Positions 8,203-23,170 of a stretch of 64,000 bases of DNA are shown piece after piece. Both the position numbers and the translations under genes were made by a program. Position 1 is the first letter of the stretch. Every line of letters starts with the position of its first letter. The notes under the pieces were generated by a model. It worked only from the letters and a program-made list of their open reading frames with translations. It searched no databases and was not told the DNA's origin. The stretch is from Dactylococcopsis salina PCC 8305 (GTDB lineage Bacteria > Cyanobacteriota > Cyanobacteriia > Cyanobacteriales > Rubidibacteraceae): positions 2,005,840 through 2,069,839 of the forward strand of contig NC_019780.1 of the NCBI RefSeq assembly GCF_000317615.1, given 5' to 3'.

Positions 8203-9177
8203 CTAGTTCAGTCCTCCATAACCAGGAGGGAGATTAAGAGAAGAGGAGGAGTCTTCATTCTCCTGTTGTTCTGATTCAAAAGGAGACGGTTCATCGAGAG
8301 GAGAAGCATCTTGGGGAGAAGGACGATCGCCGTCCACATCCGCTAAATCCCCTAAGTTAAATAAGAAAGGGACACTGCTTTCGTTTTCTCCACCCATGAC
8401 AAGGACATTCGGCATTTGAGAGCCGCCTTGTCGCCAGGCTTCGATCGCTTCTTTTTGTAGTACCAGTGATCCGCCTTGAGCGCGTAACGTATCCGCGAGG
8501 AGGCGTTGTGCTTCTGCTCGTCCTTTCGCACGGTTAATGTCAGCTTGCGCCTTTTGTTCCGCTTCTCTGGCAATATAAACCGCTCGTTGGGCGCTTTGTT
8601 CTGCGATTTGCTTATCTTCTACCGCTTGCGCAAAGGCTTTCGTGAAATTCAGATCAACAACGCTGGTATCAAGGACAATAATCCCATACTTTTCCAAGCG
8701 ATTGTTTAGCGCGATATCAAAATCCTGTTTTAATTCATCCCGTCGGGTGATTGCCTCTTCCGCCGTTTTCCTGGCAGCCGCCACCTTAAAGGATTCCTGA
8801 GTTTGCGGAGAAATCACTTTCGCGACAACATTACTTAACGTGCCTTGTTTCCGACGAATATCCACCACCTGAACAGGATCAAGACGGAAGTTAATGGCAA
8901 AACTGGCATTCAAATCTTGTAAGTCTTTCGTGGCACTTTGCGCCGGGACTTCATATTTTTGAACCGTCACATCATACACATCCACTTTAGAAATAATGGG
9001 GGGTTTAAAGTGAATCCCCTCCAATAATGCGCCTTCTTGTGCTTTTCCTAAAATACTGAGAACCCCAGCTTCTCCAGGGTTAATCACCGTATAAGAGTTA
9101 AAGCCAATGATTAATAACAAAGCGGCAATCACGCCACCAATAATGGCGGTTATGCTTTGGGAATTGGGTTTATTCAA
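8203..9177 (-). CDS. prohibitin/SPFH-family membrane protein, paralogue 1
   Basis: This 324-residue protein has one N-terminal membrane segment (about 10-30), an SPFH/prohibitin domain (about 30-215), a coiled-coil stretch rich in A/E/K/R (about 180-240), and an acidic, Pro/Ser-rich tail. SPFH proteins form ring-like membrane scaffolds and often protect or sequester membrane proteases. It is a tandem paralogue of the next gene upstream, with only about 47 bp between them. The main differences lie in the C-terminal tail. Confidence 0.88.
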   Translation of the reverse strand: MNKPNSQSITAIIGGVIAALLLIIGFNSYTVINPGEAGVLSILGKAQEGALLEGIHFKPPIISKVDVYDVTVQKYEVPAQSATKDLQDLNASFAINFRLDPVQVVDIRRKQGTLSNVVAKVISPQTQESFKVAAARKTAEEAITRRDELKQDFDIALNNRLEKYGIIVLDTSVVDLNFTKAFAQAVEDKQIAEQSAQRAVYIAREAEQKAQADINRAKGRAEAQRLLADTLRAQGGSLVLQKEAIEAWRQGGSQMPNVLVMGGENESSVPFLFNLGDLADVDGDRPSPQDASPLDEPSPFESEQQENEDSSSSLNLPPGYGGLN

Positions 9178-9224
9178 GAAATTTTGCTCCTAGTTTGTGA
9201 TTAGTTTTCTATTCTTCGTTTCGG

Positions 9225-10190
9225 CTATTCCTGCAAGTTTCCATAGCTAGGAGGAAGATCGAGAGAAGAAGATTCGTCTTCTTCGGTTTCAAAAGGAGAC
9301 GGTTCATCGAGAGGAGAGGCTTCTTCGGGGGAAGGGCGCTCTTCATCAATATCTGCTAAATCTCCTAAATTGAATAAGAAAGGAATACTACTTTTGTTTT
9401 CCCCTCCCAAAATTAACACATTGGGCATCTGAGAGCCGCCTTGTCGCCAAGCCTCGATCGCTTCTTTTTGTAACACCAGTGATCCGCCTTGAGCGCGTAA
9501 GGTTTCTGCTAAGAGGCGTTGTGCTTCTGCTTTTCCTTTGGCGCGATTAATATCAGCTTGCGCTTCTTGTTCGGCTTCTCTGGCGATATAAACCGCTCGT
9601 TGGGCGCGTTGTTCTGCGATTTGTTTATCTTCAACGGCTTGAGCAAATTCTTTGGTGAAGTTAAGATCGATGACGCTGGTATCTAAAACGAGAATGCCAT
9701 ATTTATCCAGACGATTATTGAGGGCGATATCAAAATCTTCTTTCAATTCATCCCGTTTGGTAATGGCTTCTTCTGCGGTTTTCCTCGCAGCGGCGACTTT
9801 AAACGATTCTTGAGTTTGCGGTGCGATCACTTTCGAGACGACGTTACTTAATGTGCCTTGTTTCCGACGAATATCCACCACTTGCACGGGATCAAGACGG
9901 AAGTTAATGGCAAAACTGGCTTTTAAATCTTGTAAGTCTTTGGTCGCACTTTGGGCGGGAACTTCAAATTTCTGGACGGTCACATCGTACACATCCACTT
10001 TAGAAATAAAAGGGATTTTGTAATGAATCCCTTCTAACAATGCGTCTTCTTGGGCTTTTCCTAAAATACTGAGAACCCCTGCTTCTCCTGGGTTGATAAC
10101 TACATAAGAGTTGAAACCAACTAGAAGCAATAAGGCGGCAATAATCCCACCGATAATGGCGGTTAAACTTTGGTTGGTCTGTTTGTTCAA
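9225..10190 (-). CDS. prohibitin/SPFH-family membrane protein, paralogue 2
   Basis: This 321-residue protein is highly similar to its neighbour over the whole SPFH domain, including the N-terminal membrane segment with INPGEAGVLSILGKAQE and the segment SATKDLQDL. The coiled coil and acidic tail follow. Hetero-oligomers of the two paralogues, as in mitochondrial PHB1/PHB2, are plausible but only inferred. The gene lies downstream of the phasin-like gene on the same strand, so the three may be cotranscribed. An ATG at 10190 is preceded by GGAGAAAAAC. Confidence 0.88.
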   Translation of the reverse strand: MNKQTNQSLTAIIGGIIAALLLLVGFNSYVVINPGEAGVLSILGKAQEDALLEGIHYKIPFISKVDVYDVTVQKFEVPAQSATKDLQDLKASFAINFRLDPVQVVDIRRKQGTLSNVVSKVIAPQTQESFKVAAARKTAEEAITKRDELKEDFDIALNNRLDKYGILVLDTSVIDLNFTKEFAQAVEDKQIAEQRAQRAVYIAREAEQEAQADINRAKGKAEAQRLLAETLRAQGGSLVLQKEAIEAWRQGGSQMPNVLILGGENKSSIPFLFNLGDLADIDEERPSPEEASPLDEPSPFETEEDESSSLDLPPSYGNLQE

Positions 10191-16431: not shown

Positions 16432-17464
16432 ATACTATTTTGGAAGTGCGACACGATGTTGCATTTAGAGAGTGAGTCCCTCAGAAAGACTCTGCCCAAG
16501 TGTGCATGGGTATTCCCGCTCCCAACTGCGTCGCTGGTAACGGTGGGGTGGAAAGCAGGGAGTTAAGTGTAACTATATCCTAAGTATGACTCGCCAGAAA
16601 GGGAATAAGTGCTAGGGAAAGTTCAATATGGTGAACTAACGTGAAGTGTTCGATGAGCCGTCGTAATGGTAGTCCCTATAAGTTAAGGTGAGCGTGCCGA
16701 GCGAGTAGTAAAATAGGGTTGATTAGCCACGAAAGCGAGAGCAAGTAGTGGGTTGTCAAGGGCAACGGTAAGAAGTCTCCTCTTCCAATGGAGTCTCGGA
16801 GGTCTATCCCTAAAGCATGGATAGACTAGCACACCATAAACCCTCGGCGGATAGAACACCACCTAAGTTGAGCGTATCTCTCAAATGTGAAACGTGGGTT
16901 TGCCCAATGGGGTCTGGTTTACCAGTAGGCTAACCGTAAGGGAGGCACAATTCCCCAGTGGGTATGGGACAGTCCAAAAAGCAAACGCCGTCTGCTGATT
17001 CCGTGCAGTTTCTTCTCCGACGACCTGACTTCGGATAACCGATAATCGGATTGGACAAGCAGGAACTTGAAAGCATGAGGAAAACCCTTCGGGGTATAAC
17101 TTGACGGATAAGGGTTCAAAATTTGCCCTACCTGAAAGGGGAGCTAACTTGGACACGGGTGAGTCAGTAACTCGAACGATTAATTGGAACGTCTTAAAAG
17201 TCGCGCGAAAAGTTAGATTACCATATGGTAAACGTAAGTGCGAGCGGTTTAACTAACCTTGACAAGTACAAAGACAGTCTATTAGGGTCTGCTCTTGCTT
17301 GAGCCGTGTGCGGTGAAAGTCGCACGCACGGTTCTGAGGGGGGAAGGGGAGAGTAATCTCCCTAACCTACCCGACAAGTCAAGTTACATTAAAGCCCCCC
17401 ATACCCCCCAAGTTTGGGGGGCTTAAGTAGTCGATACTGTAGCACCAATTATTCAAGATGGTAT
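16432..17464. mobile_element. 104-bp-type MITE interrupted by a group II intron
   Basis: The outer ends ATACTATTTTGGAA (16432-16445) and AAGTCAAGTTACA onward to ATGGTAT (17376-17464) match the copy at 3044-3147 continuously once the 930-bp intron is removed, leaving 103 bp. The element lies between ldpA (minus) and the first Rpn-type gene (plus). Confidence 0.85.
16446..17375 (+). mobile_element. ORF-less group II intron
   Basis: The 5' end GTGCGAC is the group II consensus. Domain V is clear at 17301-17335, opening GAGCCGTGTGCGGTGAAAG, with the catalytic AGC triad at 17302-17304 and closing strand ACGGTTCT. A domain VI-like stem follows at about 17338-17373. Boundaries are set by comparison with the uninterrupted MITE at 3044-3147. 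No reverse transcriptase/maturase frame is present in the 930 bp, so splicing or mobility would need a maturase supplied elsewhere. TCCAAAA at 16973-16979 could be EBS1, pairing with TTTTGGA in the 5' exon; this is inference. Confidence 0.88.
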
Positions 17465-17518: not shown

Positions 17519-18349
17519 ATGTCCTTCGATAATCTCTGTAAACTCTTATCAGAAAAATATCCCACCAATTTTGCCAGTTGGGTACTCAAAACCCCACAAA
17601 CCAATGTAGAAGTGCTCAAAACCGAACTCAGCATTGAACCCATTCGTGCTGATTCCGTCACTTTTTTACAACTACAGGGACGAATTCTCCATTTAGAGTT
17701 TCAAACCCAATGGCGATCGAAGCCACCGCTTCCTCTACGAATGTTAGATTATTGGGTGCGTCTCTATCGTTTGTATCGCTTACCGATTACCCAAGTGGTG
17801 GTTTTATTACTCCCCCCTCCTGAGACTGAGGTGATTGAAACCCGATTTACTTTAGAAAACACTGACCATCAATATCAAGTGATTCGGTTATGGGAAGAAA
17901 ATTCAGAGTTATTTCTCCATGATCCCGCATTATTACCCTTAGCCCCATTAACGGCGACTAATGAGCCACAAACCTTGTTACAACAGGTAATTCAACAAGT
18001 GAATGAACTGGAAGAAGAGAAGAGGGCGGAAATTTCAGCTTACGCGCAAATTGTCGCTGGGCTAAAATATGAGAAAGATTTGGTGAAACGATTATTCAGG
18101 GAGGGGATGATGCGAGAGTCAGTAATTTATCAGGATATTATCAGAGAAGGAAGAGAAGAAGGAGAACAAAGAGAACGATCGCTGATCCTCCGCCAACTAA
18201 CGCGACGAGTGGGCGAGTTACCGCAACCGTGGCGCGATCGGGTTAACAGTCTCTCTCTAGAACAATTAGAAAATCTCGGAGAAGCGTTACTGGATTTTCA
18301 GGGAATGGAAGATTTAGAAACCTGGTGGCGTACCTTAGAGGAAAATTGA
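17519..18349 (+). CDS. Rpn-type PD-(D/E)XK nuclease with DUF4351 tail, copy 1
   Basis: This 276-residue protein belongs to the Rpn/transposase-like PD-(D/E)XK family. The active-site pattern is visible as D45 in IRADSV and E60-x-Q62 in HLEFQTQ. The C-terminal DUF4351-like region (about 210-272) contains RQLTRRVGELP and LSLEQLENLGEALLDF. The gene heads a tandem array with an exact 881-bp period. An internal GGGAGGGG followed by ATG-ATG at 18107-18112 (M197/M198) could start a 79-80 residue C-terminal product. E. coli rpn genes are known to encode such intragenic antitoxins; application here is inference. Confidence 0.82.
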   Translation: MSFDNLCKLLSEKYPTNFASWVLKTPQTNVEVLKTELSIEPIRADSVTFLQLQGRILHLEFQTQWRSKPPLPLRMLDYWVRLYRLYRLPITQVVVLLLPPPETEVIETRFTLENTDHQYQVIRLWEENSELFLHDPALLPLAPLTATNEPQTLLQQVIQQVNELEEEKRAEISAYAQIVAGLKYEKDLVKRLFREGMMRESVIYQDIIREGREEGEQRERSLILRQLTRRVGELPQPWRDRVNSLSLEQLENLGEALLDFQGMEDLETWWRTLEEN

Positions 18350-18399
18350 GATAAAAAAGGGATAATGCTAAAATTCAAGTCCATTTTTCCTTTTTCTAG

Positions 18400-19230
18400 A
18401 TGTCCTTCGATAATCTCTGTAAACTCTTATCAGAAAAATATCCCACCAATTTTGCCAGTTGGGTACTCAAAACCCCACAAACCGATGTAGAAGTTCTCAA
18501 AACCGAACTCAGCATTGAACCCATTCGTGCTGATTCCGTCACTTTTTTACAACTACAGGGACGAATTCTCCATTTAGAGTTTCAAACCCAATGGCGATCG
18601 AAGCCACCGCTTCCTCTACGAATGTTAGATTATTGGGTGCGTCTCTATCGTTTGTATCGCTTACCGATTACCCAAGTGGTGGTTTTATTACTCCCCCCTC
18701 TTGAGACTGAGGTGATTGAAACCCGATTTACTTTAGAAAACACTGACCATCAATATCAAGTGATTCGATTATGGGAAGAAAATCCAGATAGGTTTCTCCA
18801 TGATCCCGCATTATTACCCTTAGCCCCATTAACGGCGACTAATGAGCCACAAACCTTGTTACAACAGGTAATTCAACAAGTGAATGAACTGGAAGAAGAG
18901 AAGAGGGCGGAAATTTCAGCTTACGCGCAAATTGTCGCTGGGCTAAAATATGAGAAAGATTTGGTGAAACGATTATTCAGGGAGGGGATGATGCGAGAGT
19001 CAGTAATTTATCAGGATATTATCAGAGAAGGAAGAGAAGAAGGAGAACAAAGAGAACGATCGCTGATCCTCCGTCAACTAACGCGACGAGTGGGCGAGTT
19101 ACCGCAACCGTGGCGCGATCAGGTCAATAGTCTCTCTCTAGAACAATTAGAAAATCTCGGAGAAGCATTACTCGATTTTCAGGGAATGGAAGATTTAGAA
19201 ACCTGGTGGCGTACCTTAGAGGAAAATTGA
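18400..19230 (+). CDS. Rpn-type PD-(D/E)XK nuclease with DUF4351 tail, copy 2
   Basis: This copy is nearly identical to copy 1 over all 276 residues. Visible changes are few: N29D, P100L, a short SEL to PDR change near residue 130, and R238Q. The active-site D45, E60 and Q62 are kept. The 50-bp leader, with the segment AAATTCAAGTCCATTT before the ATG, is also duplicated. The internal SD plus ATG-ATG is preserved at 18988-18993. No ordinary Shine-Dalgarno precedes the main start, whereas the internal start has a strong one. Confidence 0.82.
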   Translation: MSFDNLCKLLSEKYPTNFASWVLKTPQTDVEVLKTELSIEPIRADSVTFLQLQGRILHLEFQTQWRSKPPLPLRMLDYWVRLYRLYRLPITQVVVLLLPPLETEVIETRFTLENTDHQYQVIRLWEENPDRFLHDPALLPLAPLTATNEPQTLLQQVIQQVNELEEEKRAEISAYAQIVAGLKYEKDLVKRLFREGMMRESVIYQDIIREGREEGEQRERSLILRQLTRRVGELPQPWRDQVNSLSLEQLENLGEALLDFQGMEDLETWWRTLEEN

Positions 19231-19280
19231 GATAAAAAAGGGATAATGCTAAAATTCAAGTCCATTTCCCTTTTTTCTAG

Positions 19281-20126
19281 ATGTCCTTCGATAATCTCTG
19301 TAAACTCTTATCAGAAAAATATCCCACCAACTTTGCCAGTTGGGTACTCAAAACCCCACAAACCAATGTAGAAGTGCTCAAAACCGAACTCAGCATTGAA
19401 CCCATCCGTGCTGATTCCGTCACTTTCCTGCAACTACAGGGACGAATTCTCCATTTAGAGTTTCAAACCCAATGGCGATCGAAGCCACCGCTTCCTCTAC
19501 GAATGTTAGATTATTGGGTGCGTCTCTATCGTTTGTATCGCTTACCGATTACCCAAGTGGTGGTTTTATTACTCCCCCCTCCTGAGACTGAGGTGATTGA
19601 AACCCGATTTACCCTCGAAAACACTGACCATCAATATCAAGTGATTCGATTATGGGAAGAAAATCCAGATAGGTTTCTCCATGATCCCGCATTATTACCC
19701 TTAGCCCCATTAACGGCGACTAATGAACCACAAACCCTATTGCAACAAGTAGTGGAACAAGTGAATGAACTGGAAGAAGAGAAGAGAGTGGAAATTTCAG
19801 CTTACGCGCAAATTGTCGCTGGGTTAAAATATGAGAAAGATTTGGTGAAACGATTATTCAGGGAGGGGATGATGCGAGAGTCAGTCATTTATCAAGATAT
19901 TATCCGAGAAGGAAGACAAGAAGGAAGACAAGAAGAAGGACGATCGCTGATCCTCCGTCAACTAACGCGACGAGTGGGCGAGTTACCGCAATTGTGGCGC
20001 GATCGCGTTAATAGTCTCTCTCTAGAACAATTAGAAAATCTCGGAGAAGCGTTACTGGATTTTCAGGGAATGGGAGATTTAGAAACCTGGTGGGATACAT
20101 CCAACGATTATTCAAGGAGGGGATAA
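19281..20126 (+). CDS. Rpn-type PD-(D/E)XK nuclease with DUF4351 tail, copy 3 (altered end)
   Basis: This 281-residue copy keeps D45, E60 and Q62 and the internal start at 19869-19874. It differs from copies 1 and 2 by scattered synonymous changes, a GRQEGRQEEG stretch in the hinge, and a new C-terminus after DLETWW: the frame crosses into the truncated fourth copy and ends at a TAA (20124-20126) that overlaps that copy's ATG. The altered end reflects recombination between repeat units. Confidence 0.8.
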   Translation: MSFDNLCKLLSEKYPTNFASWVLKTPQTNVEVLKTELSIEPIRADSVTFLQLQGRILHLEFQTQWRSKPPLPLRMLDYWVRLYRLYRLPITQVVVLLLPPPETEVIETRFTLENTDHQYQVIRLWEENPDRFLHDPALLPLAPLTATNEPQTLLQQVVEQVNELEEEKRVEISAYAQIVAGLKYEKDLVKRLFREGMMRESVIYQDIIREGRQEGRQEEGRSLILRQLTRRVGELPQLWRDRVNSLSLEQLENLGEALLDFQGMGDLETWWDTSNDYSRRG

Positions 20127-20368
20127 TGCGAGAGTCAGTAATTTATCAAGATATTATCAGAGAAGGAAGACAAGAAGAAGGGCGATCGCTGATTCTCCGT
20201 CAACTAACGCGACGAGTGGGCGAGTTACCGCAACCGTGGCGCGATCGCGTCAATAGTCTCTCTCTCGAACAATTAGAAAACCTCGGAGAAGCGTTACTGG
20301 ATTTTCAGGGAATGGGAGATTTAGAAACTTGGTGGAGTCAATTGAACGAATTTTATCGTGTAGGTTAG
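20126..20368 (+). CDS. stand-alone C-terminal Rpn fragment (copy 4, possible antitoxin-like product)
   Basis: The ATG at 20126 overlaps the TAA of copy 3 and is preceded by AAGGAGG, a strong Shine-Dalgarno. The 80-residue product, beginning MRESVIYQDII, corresponds exactly to what an internal start at M198 of copies 1-3 would make, including the whole DUF4351-like region. The nuclease half of this copy is deleted at about 20090. It could be a mere remnant, but the intact frame, strong ribosome site and coupled start argue that it may be translated. A GTG at 20090 is a less likely start. Confidence 0.6.
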   Translation: MRESVIYQDIIREGRQEEGRSLILRQLTRRVGELPQPWRDRVNSLSLEQLENLGEALLDFQGMGDLETWWSQLNEFYRVG

Positions 20369-20412: not shown

Positions 20413-20625
20413 ATGGAAAAACAAGAACTTAAAGCTCTAATCAAAGAAACTGTGCGGGAAGTCATCTACGAAGAAAGACACAATTTATGTCAAATTTTGA
20501 TTCCCTATGTCAGCGATGAAGAACAACGGGAACTCGAAGCCGAGTTTGGTAAACCGACAACAGAAGATGATGAAGAATTAACCGATTTAACTGATTGGGT
20601 GAAAAGTGACGCGATCGCGCATTGA
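20413..20625 (+). CDS. small acidic antitoxin-like protein
   Basis: This 70-residue product is helical and acidic, with a Lys/Glu-rich N-terminal helix and a C-terminal TDLTDWV segment. Small proteins of this kind often accompany toxins in cyanobacteria, but no toxin frame follows: an ABC exporter remnant begins 55 bp downstream. I do not recognise a named family, and the antitoxin suggestion is a resemblance only. Confidence 0.5.
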   Translation: MEKQELKALIKETVREVIYEERHNLCQILIPYVSDEEQRELEAEFGKPTTEDDEELTDLTDWVKSDAIAH

Positions 20626-20680
20626 AGAAAGTCTTATCTGACCGTTGTTTAAAATCCGTTTTGCTACTTTTTTCTCAACA

Positions 20681-21820
20681 ATGCTTATTTTCCCGTCCAA
20701 TCATCCCCTTTCCCGTTTATTTCGCCACAGTCGCCGTTATGCAACTCAAATTTGGGGCGCGATCGCCTGTTCTATTCTCAATACCATCTTTGATTTAGCC
20801 CCACCCTATCTCATTGGAGTTGCGATCGATGTGGTGGTACAACAGGAAAACTCCTTGATTTCCCGTTTTGGCTTCACCAGCATCACCACCCAACTGGCGA
20901 TCGTTTCTCTGATTACTTTCTTGATTTGGAGTTTGGAATCTCTCACGGAATATGCTTACAGTCGTCTCTGGCAAAACTTAGCCCAAACCTTACAACATGA
21001 ATTGCGAGTAGATGCTTATGGTCATTTGCAAGAGTTGGAGTTGAGTTATTTTGAAGAACGAAGTACGGGCTTTTTTCTGGCGGTTCTTAATGATGATATT
21101 AACCAATTAGAGCGATTTTTGAATTTTGGGGCGTATGGATTTCTCCGTTTTTTCACGACGATTTTATTTGTGGGAGGAACATTTATTGTCTTGGCCCCTG
21201 GGGTGTCTTGGCTGGCGATGTTGCCGATTCCCTTTGTTTTGTGGGGGTCGATCGCGTTCCAAAAAAAACTTGCTCCCCGTTATGCCGAGGTGCGCGATAA
21301 AGCAAGTTTAATTAACACTCGTTTGAATAATAATCTTTCTGGTATTGCTACGATTAAAAGTTTTACTGCTGAAAGTTATGAACGCGATCGGGTTAAAAAA
21401 GAAAGTGAAGCCTATCGCCACAGTAATGGGAAAGCCATCGCTTTAAGTGCCGCGTTTGTTCCTTCGATTCGGATTTTAATTTTAATCGGCTTCACCGCCA
21501 CTTTATTTTTAGGGGGCTTAGAAGTCGCTAATGGCAATCTCTCGGCGGGAACTTACGGGTTTATTGTGTTTATTGTTCAACGCTTGTTATGGCCCTTTAC
21601 GCAGTTAAGTGAATTGATGGATGAATATCAACGGGCGATGGCTTCGATTTATCGGGTGATGAATTTGTTAGAAACGCCGATTGCGATCGCGAGTGGCGAT
21701 CAACCTTTACCAGTGCAGAAAGTACAAGGAGAAATTAAGCTCGATCGCGTGACTTTTTCCTATCCCGAACAAAAACCAGTTTTTAAGAACCTTTCTCTGG
21801 AAATACCAGCCAATAAATAA
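20681..21820 (+). pseudogene. ABC exporter, 5' part (NBD core lost)
   Basis: The frame gives a type I exporter membrane domain with about six hydrophobic segments (about residues 20-320) and the first strands of an ABC nucleotide-binding domain (IKLDRVTFSYPEQKP, NLSLEIPANK). It then stops at a TAA formed at the left end of the tnpB element. Walker A, the signature motif and Walker B are absent. The matching tail is found at 23254-23370. I use ATG 20681 rather than an upstream TTG at 20645. Without the ATPase core it cannot be a working transporter. Confidence 0.85.
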
Positions 21821-21913
21821 GAGTCCGACAGGACATCCTTAAACTAACAATTAACAAGTTGACAACATACAATAAACATCTTACCATAAAGAAGTTACCA
21901 ATAAATTAGGTCG

Positions 21914-23170
21914 ATGTTAACTTTAAACTATCAGTACCGAATCTATCCCGATCAATCTCAAGAAGAAAGGCTCCTTGAGATCATGGAAGTTTGTCGAAGT
22001 GCTTACAATTACGCGCTTCGAGAAATTAAAGATTGGTGTAATAGTCGAAAATGTAGCATTGACCGATGTAGTTTAGTTTCGGAATATATCATCCCTGTTG
22101 ATGCTAAATTTCCTAGCGAGTTAACTCAGCTTAATCAACTCCCCAAAGCGAAAAAGGAATTTCCGAATCTCAAACAAGTCCCCTCTCAAGTTTTACAACA
22201 AACCATTAAGCAGTTACATCGAGCATGGGACTTTTTTCGAGAAAGAGGGTATGGTTTTCCTCGATTCAAAAAGTTTGGACAATTTAAGTCAATTCTTTTT
22301 CCACAGTTTAAGGAATCCCCCCTTCTTTTCCCCCCTTACGAAGGGGGGTTAGGGGGGATGTGGCAAATTAACTTACCTAAAATTGGGAAAATCAGAATCA
22401 ATGTTCATCGTCCAATTCCAGATGGGTTCAAAGTTAAACAGGTTCGAGTCATTAGGAAAGCAGATCGATGGTATGTTTCAATTTGTATCCAATTAGATGT
22501 TGATGTCCCTGATCCACAACCTCATGGTCATCCATTAGGTGTGGACATCGGGTTAGAGAAATTCTTAGCGACCAGTGATGGGGTTCTCGTCAAACCGCCA
22601 AAGTTTTTTAAGAAAATGCAAAGCGAGTTGAAATTACTGCAACGCCGACTTTCTAGAAAACAGAAACGGTCAAAGAATTACGAGAAACAACGCATCAAGG
22701 TAGCAAGAATGCACCACAAAATTAGCAATACTCGAAAAGATTTCCACTATAAACAAGCTCATGCTTTGTGTGATGCTGGTGACATGATCTTCATGGAAGA
22801 TTTGGATTACCGCATTACATCTCAAGGAATGCTTGGAAAAGAAATGTTGGATGGAGGGTTTGGACAGTTCCGAACCATTACTCAACAAGTCTGTTGGAAA
22901 CGTGGAAAGTATTTTGATGTTGTTGAGGCAAGAGGAAGTAGTCAAACTTGCCCCAATTGTGGTGTTCACGTCAAGAAAGACTTGAGCGTAAGAGTTCATA
23001 AATGTCCTGAATGCAAATATGAAGCAGATCGGGATGTGGCGGCGGCAAGCGTGTTAAGAAATCGAGGATTAAATTTAGTACGGCGGGACTCGTCGGAAAG
23101 GAAACAGCCTGCTACCGATGGGGTTTCCCCTCAAGAGCGATCTGTCGGGGGATTGGGGAACCAGTCCTAG
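21914..23170 (+). CDS. tnpB: RNA-guided endonuclease TnpB, with in-frame repeat-derived insertion
   Basis: This 418-residue protein has an N-terminal helix-turn-helix-like region, a RuvC-like core with D211 in GVDIGLEK, E295 in FMEDLDYR and D374 (or D372) in ADRDVAAA, and a zinc ribbon with CPNC (346-349) and CPEC (364-367). All catalytic positions are intact, so it could be active with an omega-RNA. Residues about 134-149 (ESPLLFPPYEGGLGGM) have no TnpB counterpart that I recall and are encoded by a C-rich/G-rich palindrome of the kind scattered between genes here. Confidence 0.9.
   Translation: MLTLNYQYRIYPDQSQEERLLEIMEVCRSAYNYALREIKDWCNSRKCSIDRCSLVSEYIIPVDAKFPSELTQLNQLPKAKKEFPNLKQVPSQVLQQTIKQLHRAWDFFRERGYGFPRFKKFGQFKSILFPQFKESPLLFPPYEGGLGGMWQINLPKIGKIRINVHRPIPDGFKVKQVRVIRKADRWYVSICIQLDVDVPDPQPHGHPLGVDIGLEKFLATSDGVLVKPPKFFKKMQSELKLLQRRLSRKQKRSKNYEKQRIKVARMHHKISNTRKDFHYKQAHALCDAGDMIFMEDLDYRITSQGMLGKEMLDGGFGQFRTITQQVCWKRGKYFDVVEARGSSQTCPNCGVHVKKDLSVRVHKCPECKYEADRDVAAASVLRNRGLNLVRRDSSERKQPATDGVSPQERSVGGLGNQS
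22318..22361. repeat. C-rich hairpin repeat inside tnpB
   Basis: The segment contains CCCCCCTTACGAAGGGGGG, which can fold on itself, followed by TTAGGGGGG. The same motif occurs in intergenic arrays near 45300-45470 and 56150-56280. Here it lies in the coding frame of tnpB without a stop. Confidence 0.8.

Follow-up and report, generated by a model that had tools for sequence, protein, structure and literature searches.

What do the genes of a tandem array in the cyanobacterium Dactylococcopsis salina PCC 8305 encode, and why does a row of long genes end in a short gene that retains the C-terminal part alone? The array lies in a 64,000-nucleotide stretch of the chromosome that was analyzed as a whole (the window), and its features are collected in Table 1. 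An earlier note, made from the letters of this stretch, had described three nearly identical genes repeated with an exact 881-bp period. The period is borne out by the coordinates of the open reading frames (ORFs), with start-to-start spacings of 881 and 881 bp, while "nearly identical" is best applied to copies 1 and 2 (98.2% ORF identity), as copy 3 is only 94.1-94.2% identical to either of them. The tail of copy 3 was found to be changed by a duplication junction (DTSNDYSRRG), and the start codon of copy 4 shares bases with the copy 3 stop codon TAA (TAATG), so that the C-terminal part appears alone, behind its own AAGGAGG, just as had been described. All four products matched the DUF4351 family (PF14261) at 80-89 bits, where membership was set at the Pfam gathering score of 25 bits; the finished 3.78-Mb chromosome carries 23 such matches. 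The source genome also has a second tandem DUF4351 array (L071 2783-6939, at 628-637 kb) of another linker type (EEVTMPLPQAF), in which the repeat number varies among the copies and one copy is broken in two. Several other elements were observed in the window: (i) a match to a Group II intron (RF00029, 71.5 bits) at 17299-17375, just upstream of the array and with no intron-encoded ORF nearby; (ii) an ORF of 70 aa at 20413-20625, which follows copy 4 after 45 bp, scores weakly and below threshold against PF25734 (RelB-like antitoxin) and has no adjoining toxin partner; (iii) an ABC transporter ORF at 20645-21820, in which the membrane domain alone was detected, followed by an IS605-type OrfB/TnpB gene at 21914-23170, such that the transporter in the 20645-23170 region may be interrupted; and (iv) two neighboring Band_7/SPFH genes at 8203-10190, an apparent tandem duplication.

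Table 1. Coordinates, within the window, of the array genes and of the elements predicted inside them
Feature	Start	End	Strand	Remarks
Copy 1, full-length	17519	18349	+	Rpn-like nuclease and C-terminal DUF4351 (RpnL-like); 276 aa
Copy 1, internal Shine-Dalgarno	18099	18106	+	GGGAGGGG
Copy 1, predicted intragenic RpnS-like ORF	18110	18349	+	Met198 onward; 79 aa
Copy 1, repeat-bearing part of first helix	18143	18178	+	REGREEGEQRER; 12 aa
Copy 2, full-length	18400	19230	+	Rpn-like nuclease and DUF4351; 276 aa
Copy 2, internal Shine-Dalgarno	18980	18987	+	
Copy 2, predicted intragenic RpnS-like ORF	18991	19230	+	
Copy 2, repeat-bearing part of first helix	19024	19059	+	12 aa
Copy 3, full-length	19281	20126	+	Rpn-like nuclease and DUF4351; 281 aa
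Copy 3, internal Shine-Dalgarno	19861	19868	+	
Copy 3, predicted intragenic RpnS-like ORF	19872	20126	+	
Copy 3, repeat-bearing part of first helix	19905	19943	+	REGRQEGRQEEGR; 13 aa
Duplication junction, copy 3 end to internal region of copy 4	20094	20113	+	GATACATCCAACGATTATTC; also in sister genome G001
Copy 4, Shine-Dalgarno	20114	20120	+	AAGGAGG
Copy 4, stand-alone C-terminal gene	20126	20368	+	RpnS-like, DUF4351 only; 80 aa
Copy 4, repeat-bearing part of first helix	20159	20185	+	REGRQEEGR; 9 aa; shorter than copy 3 by one 4-aa repeat

The N-terminal half of the long proteins is best read as an Rpn-like PD-(D/E)XK nuclease, because invariant residues coincide with matches of the predicted structure to nucleases. 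Residues D45, E60 and Q62, to which the earlier note had pointed in each long copy and whose lack of conservation in related genes it had named as grounds for rejection, are present in all three and do not vary across 35 aligned cyanobacterial relatives. An AlphaFold2 model of the full-length protein (mean pLDDT 82) had EndoMS/NucS as the top PDB match of residues 3-143 upon re-alignment with VIA (Z 9.1, rmsd 3.2 Å, 105 aligned), and the other structural matches of this part of the predicted model were mostly restriction-like or PD-(D/E)XK nucleases. By these residues and the predicted structure, the long proteins belong to the superfamily, which is defined by a catalytic Asp and a Glu-x-Lys/Gln element in the core fold. 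Foldseek with the full model returned no hit below E 0.15, and the fold call was therefore based on the VIA re-alignment together with the conserved residues. The NCBI Rpn model TIGR01784 aligned to residues 3-217 of copies 1-3 at 28.1, 26.7 and 29.7 bits, respectively (E about 1e-6), which for every long copy is below the curated cut-off of 52.1 bits. Furthermore, no protein of the window matched PF04754, the family of the E. coli Rpn nuclease (RpnE itself scores 293 bits), the N-terminal half had no Pfam hit, and PADLOC had no model matching the array proteins. The long proteins are a diverged relative of TIGR01784 and not formal members of TIGR01784 or PF04754.

We also examined the proposal that each long gene hides a second start. 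In the long copies, GGGAGGGG stands directly before an ATG-ATG at codons 197/198 (second ATG at 18110, 18991 and 19872), and the first ATG had been said to have no obvious Shine-Dalgarno. Both observations extend to the relatives: across 45 homologs the mean anti-Shine-Dalgarno energy was -10.0 kcal/mol at Met198 and -0.8 kcal/mol at the first ATG, compared with -0.8 kcal/mol at the remaining Met codons of the frame and -4.7 kcal/mol for synonymous recodings that served as a null. Codon usage was then compared in 97 genes at loci from public genomes, collapsed to 64 clusters and collected with search patterns that excluded the codons under test. The Glu three codons before the conserved Met was encoded by GAG in 59 of the 60 clusters having Glu (versus 23% for other Glu codons) and the Arg at -4 by a codon ending in GG in 52 of 54 (versus 22% elsewhere), counts in which shared ancestry is only partly controlled. 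The columns of a codon alignment share one ancestry, and among those of 52 full-length genes (i) GAG was more frequent in the Glu column before Met than in any other of the 26 Glu columns (fraction 0.98, the next being 0.63); (ii) the corresponding Arg column ranked top of 20 Arg columns; and (iii) the six codons from about -5 to the Met had the lowest synonymous variability in the gene. The amino acids flanking the site vary (REGM, REDM, KEDM, QEGI), while GAGG and its spacing to Met198 are kept. In the source genome, a Shine-Dalgarno-preceded ATG was found before the domain in 21 of the 23 DUF4351 reading frames examined, which comprise several linker types, and 15 of these frames differed from synonymous recoding at P of 0.05 or less. 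For the MRWDM linker type, AGG was present in 10 of 10 cases. The homologs on Synechocystis 6803 plasmids carry TAAGGAG seven bases upstream of the corresponding Met (Met197), written in different codons. It is very improbable that the conserved GGGAGG reflects a coding or DNA-level constraint and marks no start: it does fall within a conserved protein motif (REGMMRESVIYQ), yet the bias is at synonymous positions and outlasts the changes among REG, RED, KED and QEG, the Met is invariant at start-codon spacing from the GGGAGG, and Synechocystis makes the same motif from other codons. Since the column-by-column comparison holds ancestry equal, selection for an internal ribosome-binding site in the cyanobacterial relatives is the best explanation, and on this comparative evidence the long genes appear to have the internal start, with a Shine-Dalgarno and a C-terminal product, by which genes-within-genes are recognized. 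Each long gene would then give an RpnL-like nuclease and, by initiation at Met198 behind the internal Shine-Dalgarno, a DUF4351 (RpnS-like) protein of its own; the short product should exceed the long one, as a strong Shine-Dalgarno is found internally and none at the long start.

Copy 4 corresponds to the short product as a gene of its own. It would have arisen when a partial duplication, starting shortly ahead of the internal Shine-Dalgarno, left a free-standing RpnS-like gene with its own translation. In a sister genome (G001), five long genes are followed by a stand-alone copy of the same kind, a separate downstream gene for the C-terminal part alone. Both species have an identical junction (GATACATCCAACGAyTATTCAA) between the end of the last long gene and the stretch that immediately precedes the internal Shine-Dalgarno. 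The G001 array is at another locus: its neighboring genes are not those of the source array, and the downstream flank has no DNA match there. As the altered tail is common to the last long genes of both arrays, the pair of last long gene and stand-alone copy predates the species split. The numbers of long and stand-alone copies, 3+1 in the source genome, 5+1 in the sister species and one or none in others, agree with the change in copy number that the earlier note had suspected, and the array probably grew by tandem duplication. One of the long copies of G001, the fourth, has a one-base insertion that cuts off the nuclease half and leaves the internal start and C-terminal frame intact (L053 4282-5121); the short protein could now be its sole product.

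This instability raises the alternative that unequal duplication produced copy 4 incidentally and that the copy is now decaying. Beyond the copy number that varies between the sister species and the frameshift in G001, comparisons of copy 4 with most of the other copies in the arrays give a dN/dS of 0.24-0.36, above the 0.15 obtained when the last long copies are compared across arrays. Against this, the start, frame and Shine-Dalgarno of copy 4 are intact in both species at a dS of about 0.3, where decay of the frame in relatives had been offered as grounds for rejection; about a dozen further loci in cyanobacteria have similar long-plus-short arrangements; and a strong Shine-Dalgarno is retained by 27 of 31 cyanobacterial stand-alone ORFs. 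We therefore regard decay as unlikely. Of 51 synonymous sites, about 13.5 differ between copy 4 and its G001 counterpart, as do about 18.5 of 177 non-synonymous sites. These rates are only approximate because of gene conversion within the array, and by them copy 4 is constrained, though less than the last long gene. An exception to the Shine-Dalgarno rule was observed in another genome (G011, L054 1900-3819), where one long gene is followed by three stand-alone C-terminal copies with a 350-bp period, and the motif before their Met (TDDIM) has no Shine-Dalgarno.

The role of copy 4 was next considered in light of the E. coli rpn genes. Zhong et al. (2023, PMC10327210) reported that these genes produce RpnS from an internal start and that RpnS blocks the nuclease, in accord with the intragenic C-terminal antitoxins to which the earlier note had referred. 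Specificity was reported to be set by how many 4-residue repeats the first helix contains; one extra repeat in RpnC broke inhibition (PMC10327210). In the array, the repeats start about 12 residues after the internal Met, inside the span of 8-20 residues after that Met at which RpnS repeats begin, and their length shifts mostly in steps of four. The suggestion that copy 4 acts as antitoxin of the three nucleases encoded upstream, having moved into its own gene, can draw on its strong Shine-Dalgarno and its intact frame, kept in G001, on the stand-alone RpnS genes that E. coli has and expresses, and on the third long copy of G001, itself intact, which equals the stand-alone copy in helix length. 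Counter to this, the repeat helix of copy 4 is not equal in length to that of any upstream long gene (9 versus 12, 12 and 13), and every long gene already contains a matched short ORF. The discrepancy is general, as helix length differed in 10 of 11 adjacent long/short cyanobacterial pairs and in all 12 distinct rpnE-ypaA haplotypes from the 28 E. coli loci examined; in K-12, the helix measures 20 in rpnE and 24 in ypaA. Length matching is therefore not maintained. Because stand-alone helix lengths do not match those of their neighbors, we consider this role for copy 4 doubtful, and, if the published length rule is general, copy 4 should not be inhibitory to copies 1-3.

A different possibility, about as likely, is that copy 4 is a spare C-terminal module of alternative specificity, which would either block other RpnL alleles or recombine into a long gene; recombination of this kind would swap the nuclease tail and the intragenic antitoxin together, so that matching within the long gene persists. 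The systematic length mismatch in both groups of organisms speaks for such a module, but neighbors mismatch no more often than identity-matched unlinked pairs (25 observed, 25.8 expected), which gives no sign of avoidance. As unlinked genes of matched identity differ equally often, plain hypervariability suffices for the mismatch. Exchange between short and long copies does occur, as seen from two observations: E. coli strains without ypaA have a ypaA-type tail on an rpnE whose nuclease half is nearly identical, that is, a fusion; and in G001, the sequence nearest to the stand-alone copy is the C-terminus of copy 2, with no amino-acid change in the aligned codons, suggesting exchange inside the array. 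The fusions, already noted by Zhong et al., may nevertheless be mere deletions without an adaptive role, and the role as a spare module is permitted, rather than proven, by the exchange. Taken across groups, it is a speculative thought, somewhat less secure still, that RpnS-like stand-alone genes might be out of register with their neighbors because they are stores of alternative C-terminal specificities or neutralizers of other RpnL alleles, an arrangement that cyanobacteria (DUF4351) and E. coli (ypaA) would each have acquired independently. A phage-borne, counter-defense RpnS was also considered and is unsupported, as no relatives of the array proteins were detected in the viral contig and phage record collections searched. 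We did not find an earlier description of the length mismatch between stand-alone copies and the adjoining nuclease, nor did we find the question asked that follows from it: if length decides the targets, why is the helix length of separate RpnS copies almost never that of the adjoining nuclease?

Overall, we judge it probable that the array consists of tandem Rpn-like toxin-antitoxin genes-within-genes and a free-standing RpnS-like gene. Homology and comparative evidence indicate that it likely encodes a nuclease with an intragenic inhibitor as well as a stand-alone inhibitor-like gene. By analogy with E. coli, the RpnS-like protein would bind the same C-terminal helix of the long protein and keep the nuclease inactive; synthesis of the short protein, inhibition and a role in defense are what we infer. 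The passage of an antitoxin into a separate gene, which the earlier note had suggested, is already in PMC10327210, where RpnS is also reported as a separate downstream gene (ypaA), annotated as DUF4351 in some species, and where rpn arrays are reported to arise through tandem duplication. The scheme is thus an instance of a described kind, as intragenic and separate RpnS and arrays were all reported there. In that article, the link between DUF4351 and RpnS takes up one sentence and rpn function is given as known for E. coli and one C. difficile gene; in the literature searched on DUF4351 in cyanobacteria, nothing further was found. Through the present analysis, the intragenic-antitoxin design, known from a single E. 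coli study (plus the C. difficile gene), is extended to a whole phylum, with evidence from codon usage for selection on the hidden start.

The comparison with known systems places the array close to E. coli RpnL/RpnS in organization. The two share (i) a nuclease half with a variable C-terminal part; (ii) an internal start with a Shine-Dalgarno; (iii) 4-residue repeats in the first helix after that start; and (iv) tandem arrays and a downstream stand-alone RpnS. They differ in that three long genes are combined here with one short gene, and in that the RpnE nuclease half belongs to PF04754 and its tail is not DUF4351, whereas Pfam has no family matching the cyanobacterial nuclease half. The rpnE-ypaA pair (rpnES) likewise has a long gene followed by a short gene with a Shine-Dalgarno overlapping the long gene end, and 4-residue repeats distinguish the short copy; in contrast, there is a single long gene in that pair, and relatedness of the C-terminal sequences is undetectable beyond the repeat helix. 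A profile comparison with E. coli RpnE aligned 35 linker columns only. The C-terminal domain is predicted to be all-helical, with a long first helix and three shorter ones, and the 80-aa C-terminal model, used in a fold search, had only unrelated helical matches, with none to the RpnAS crystal structure (PDB 7TH0). With respect to the DUF4351 (PF14261) proteins of cyanobacteria, a family to which Pfam assigns no function, the four copies match well above the cut-off. In Synechocystis 6803, three Rpn paralogs on pSYSM and pSYSX (L223, L224) were observed to share a nuclease half and a MKESAVYQE helix and to have a non-DUF4351 C-terminal domain with differing repeat numbers; two of them are in tandem on pSYSM, next to PIN/HicB-type toxin-antitoxin genes. 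Compared with the array, these Synechocystis genes have a nuclease half that is about 35% identical and the same kind of internal start (TAAGGAG-N7-ATG at Met197), while another C-terminal domain replaces DUF4351, and Synechocystis 6803 is a tractable organism in which to study the intragenic-antitoxin design.
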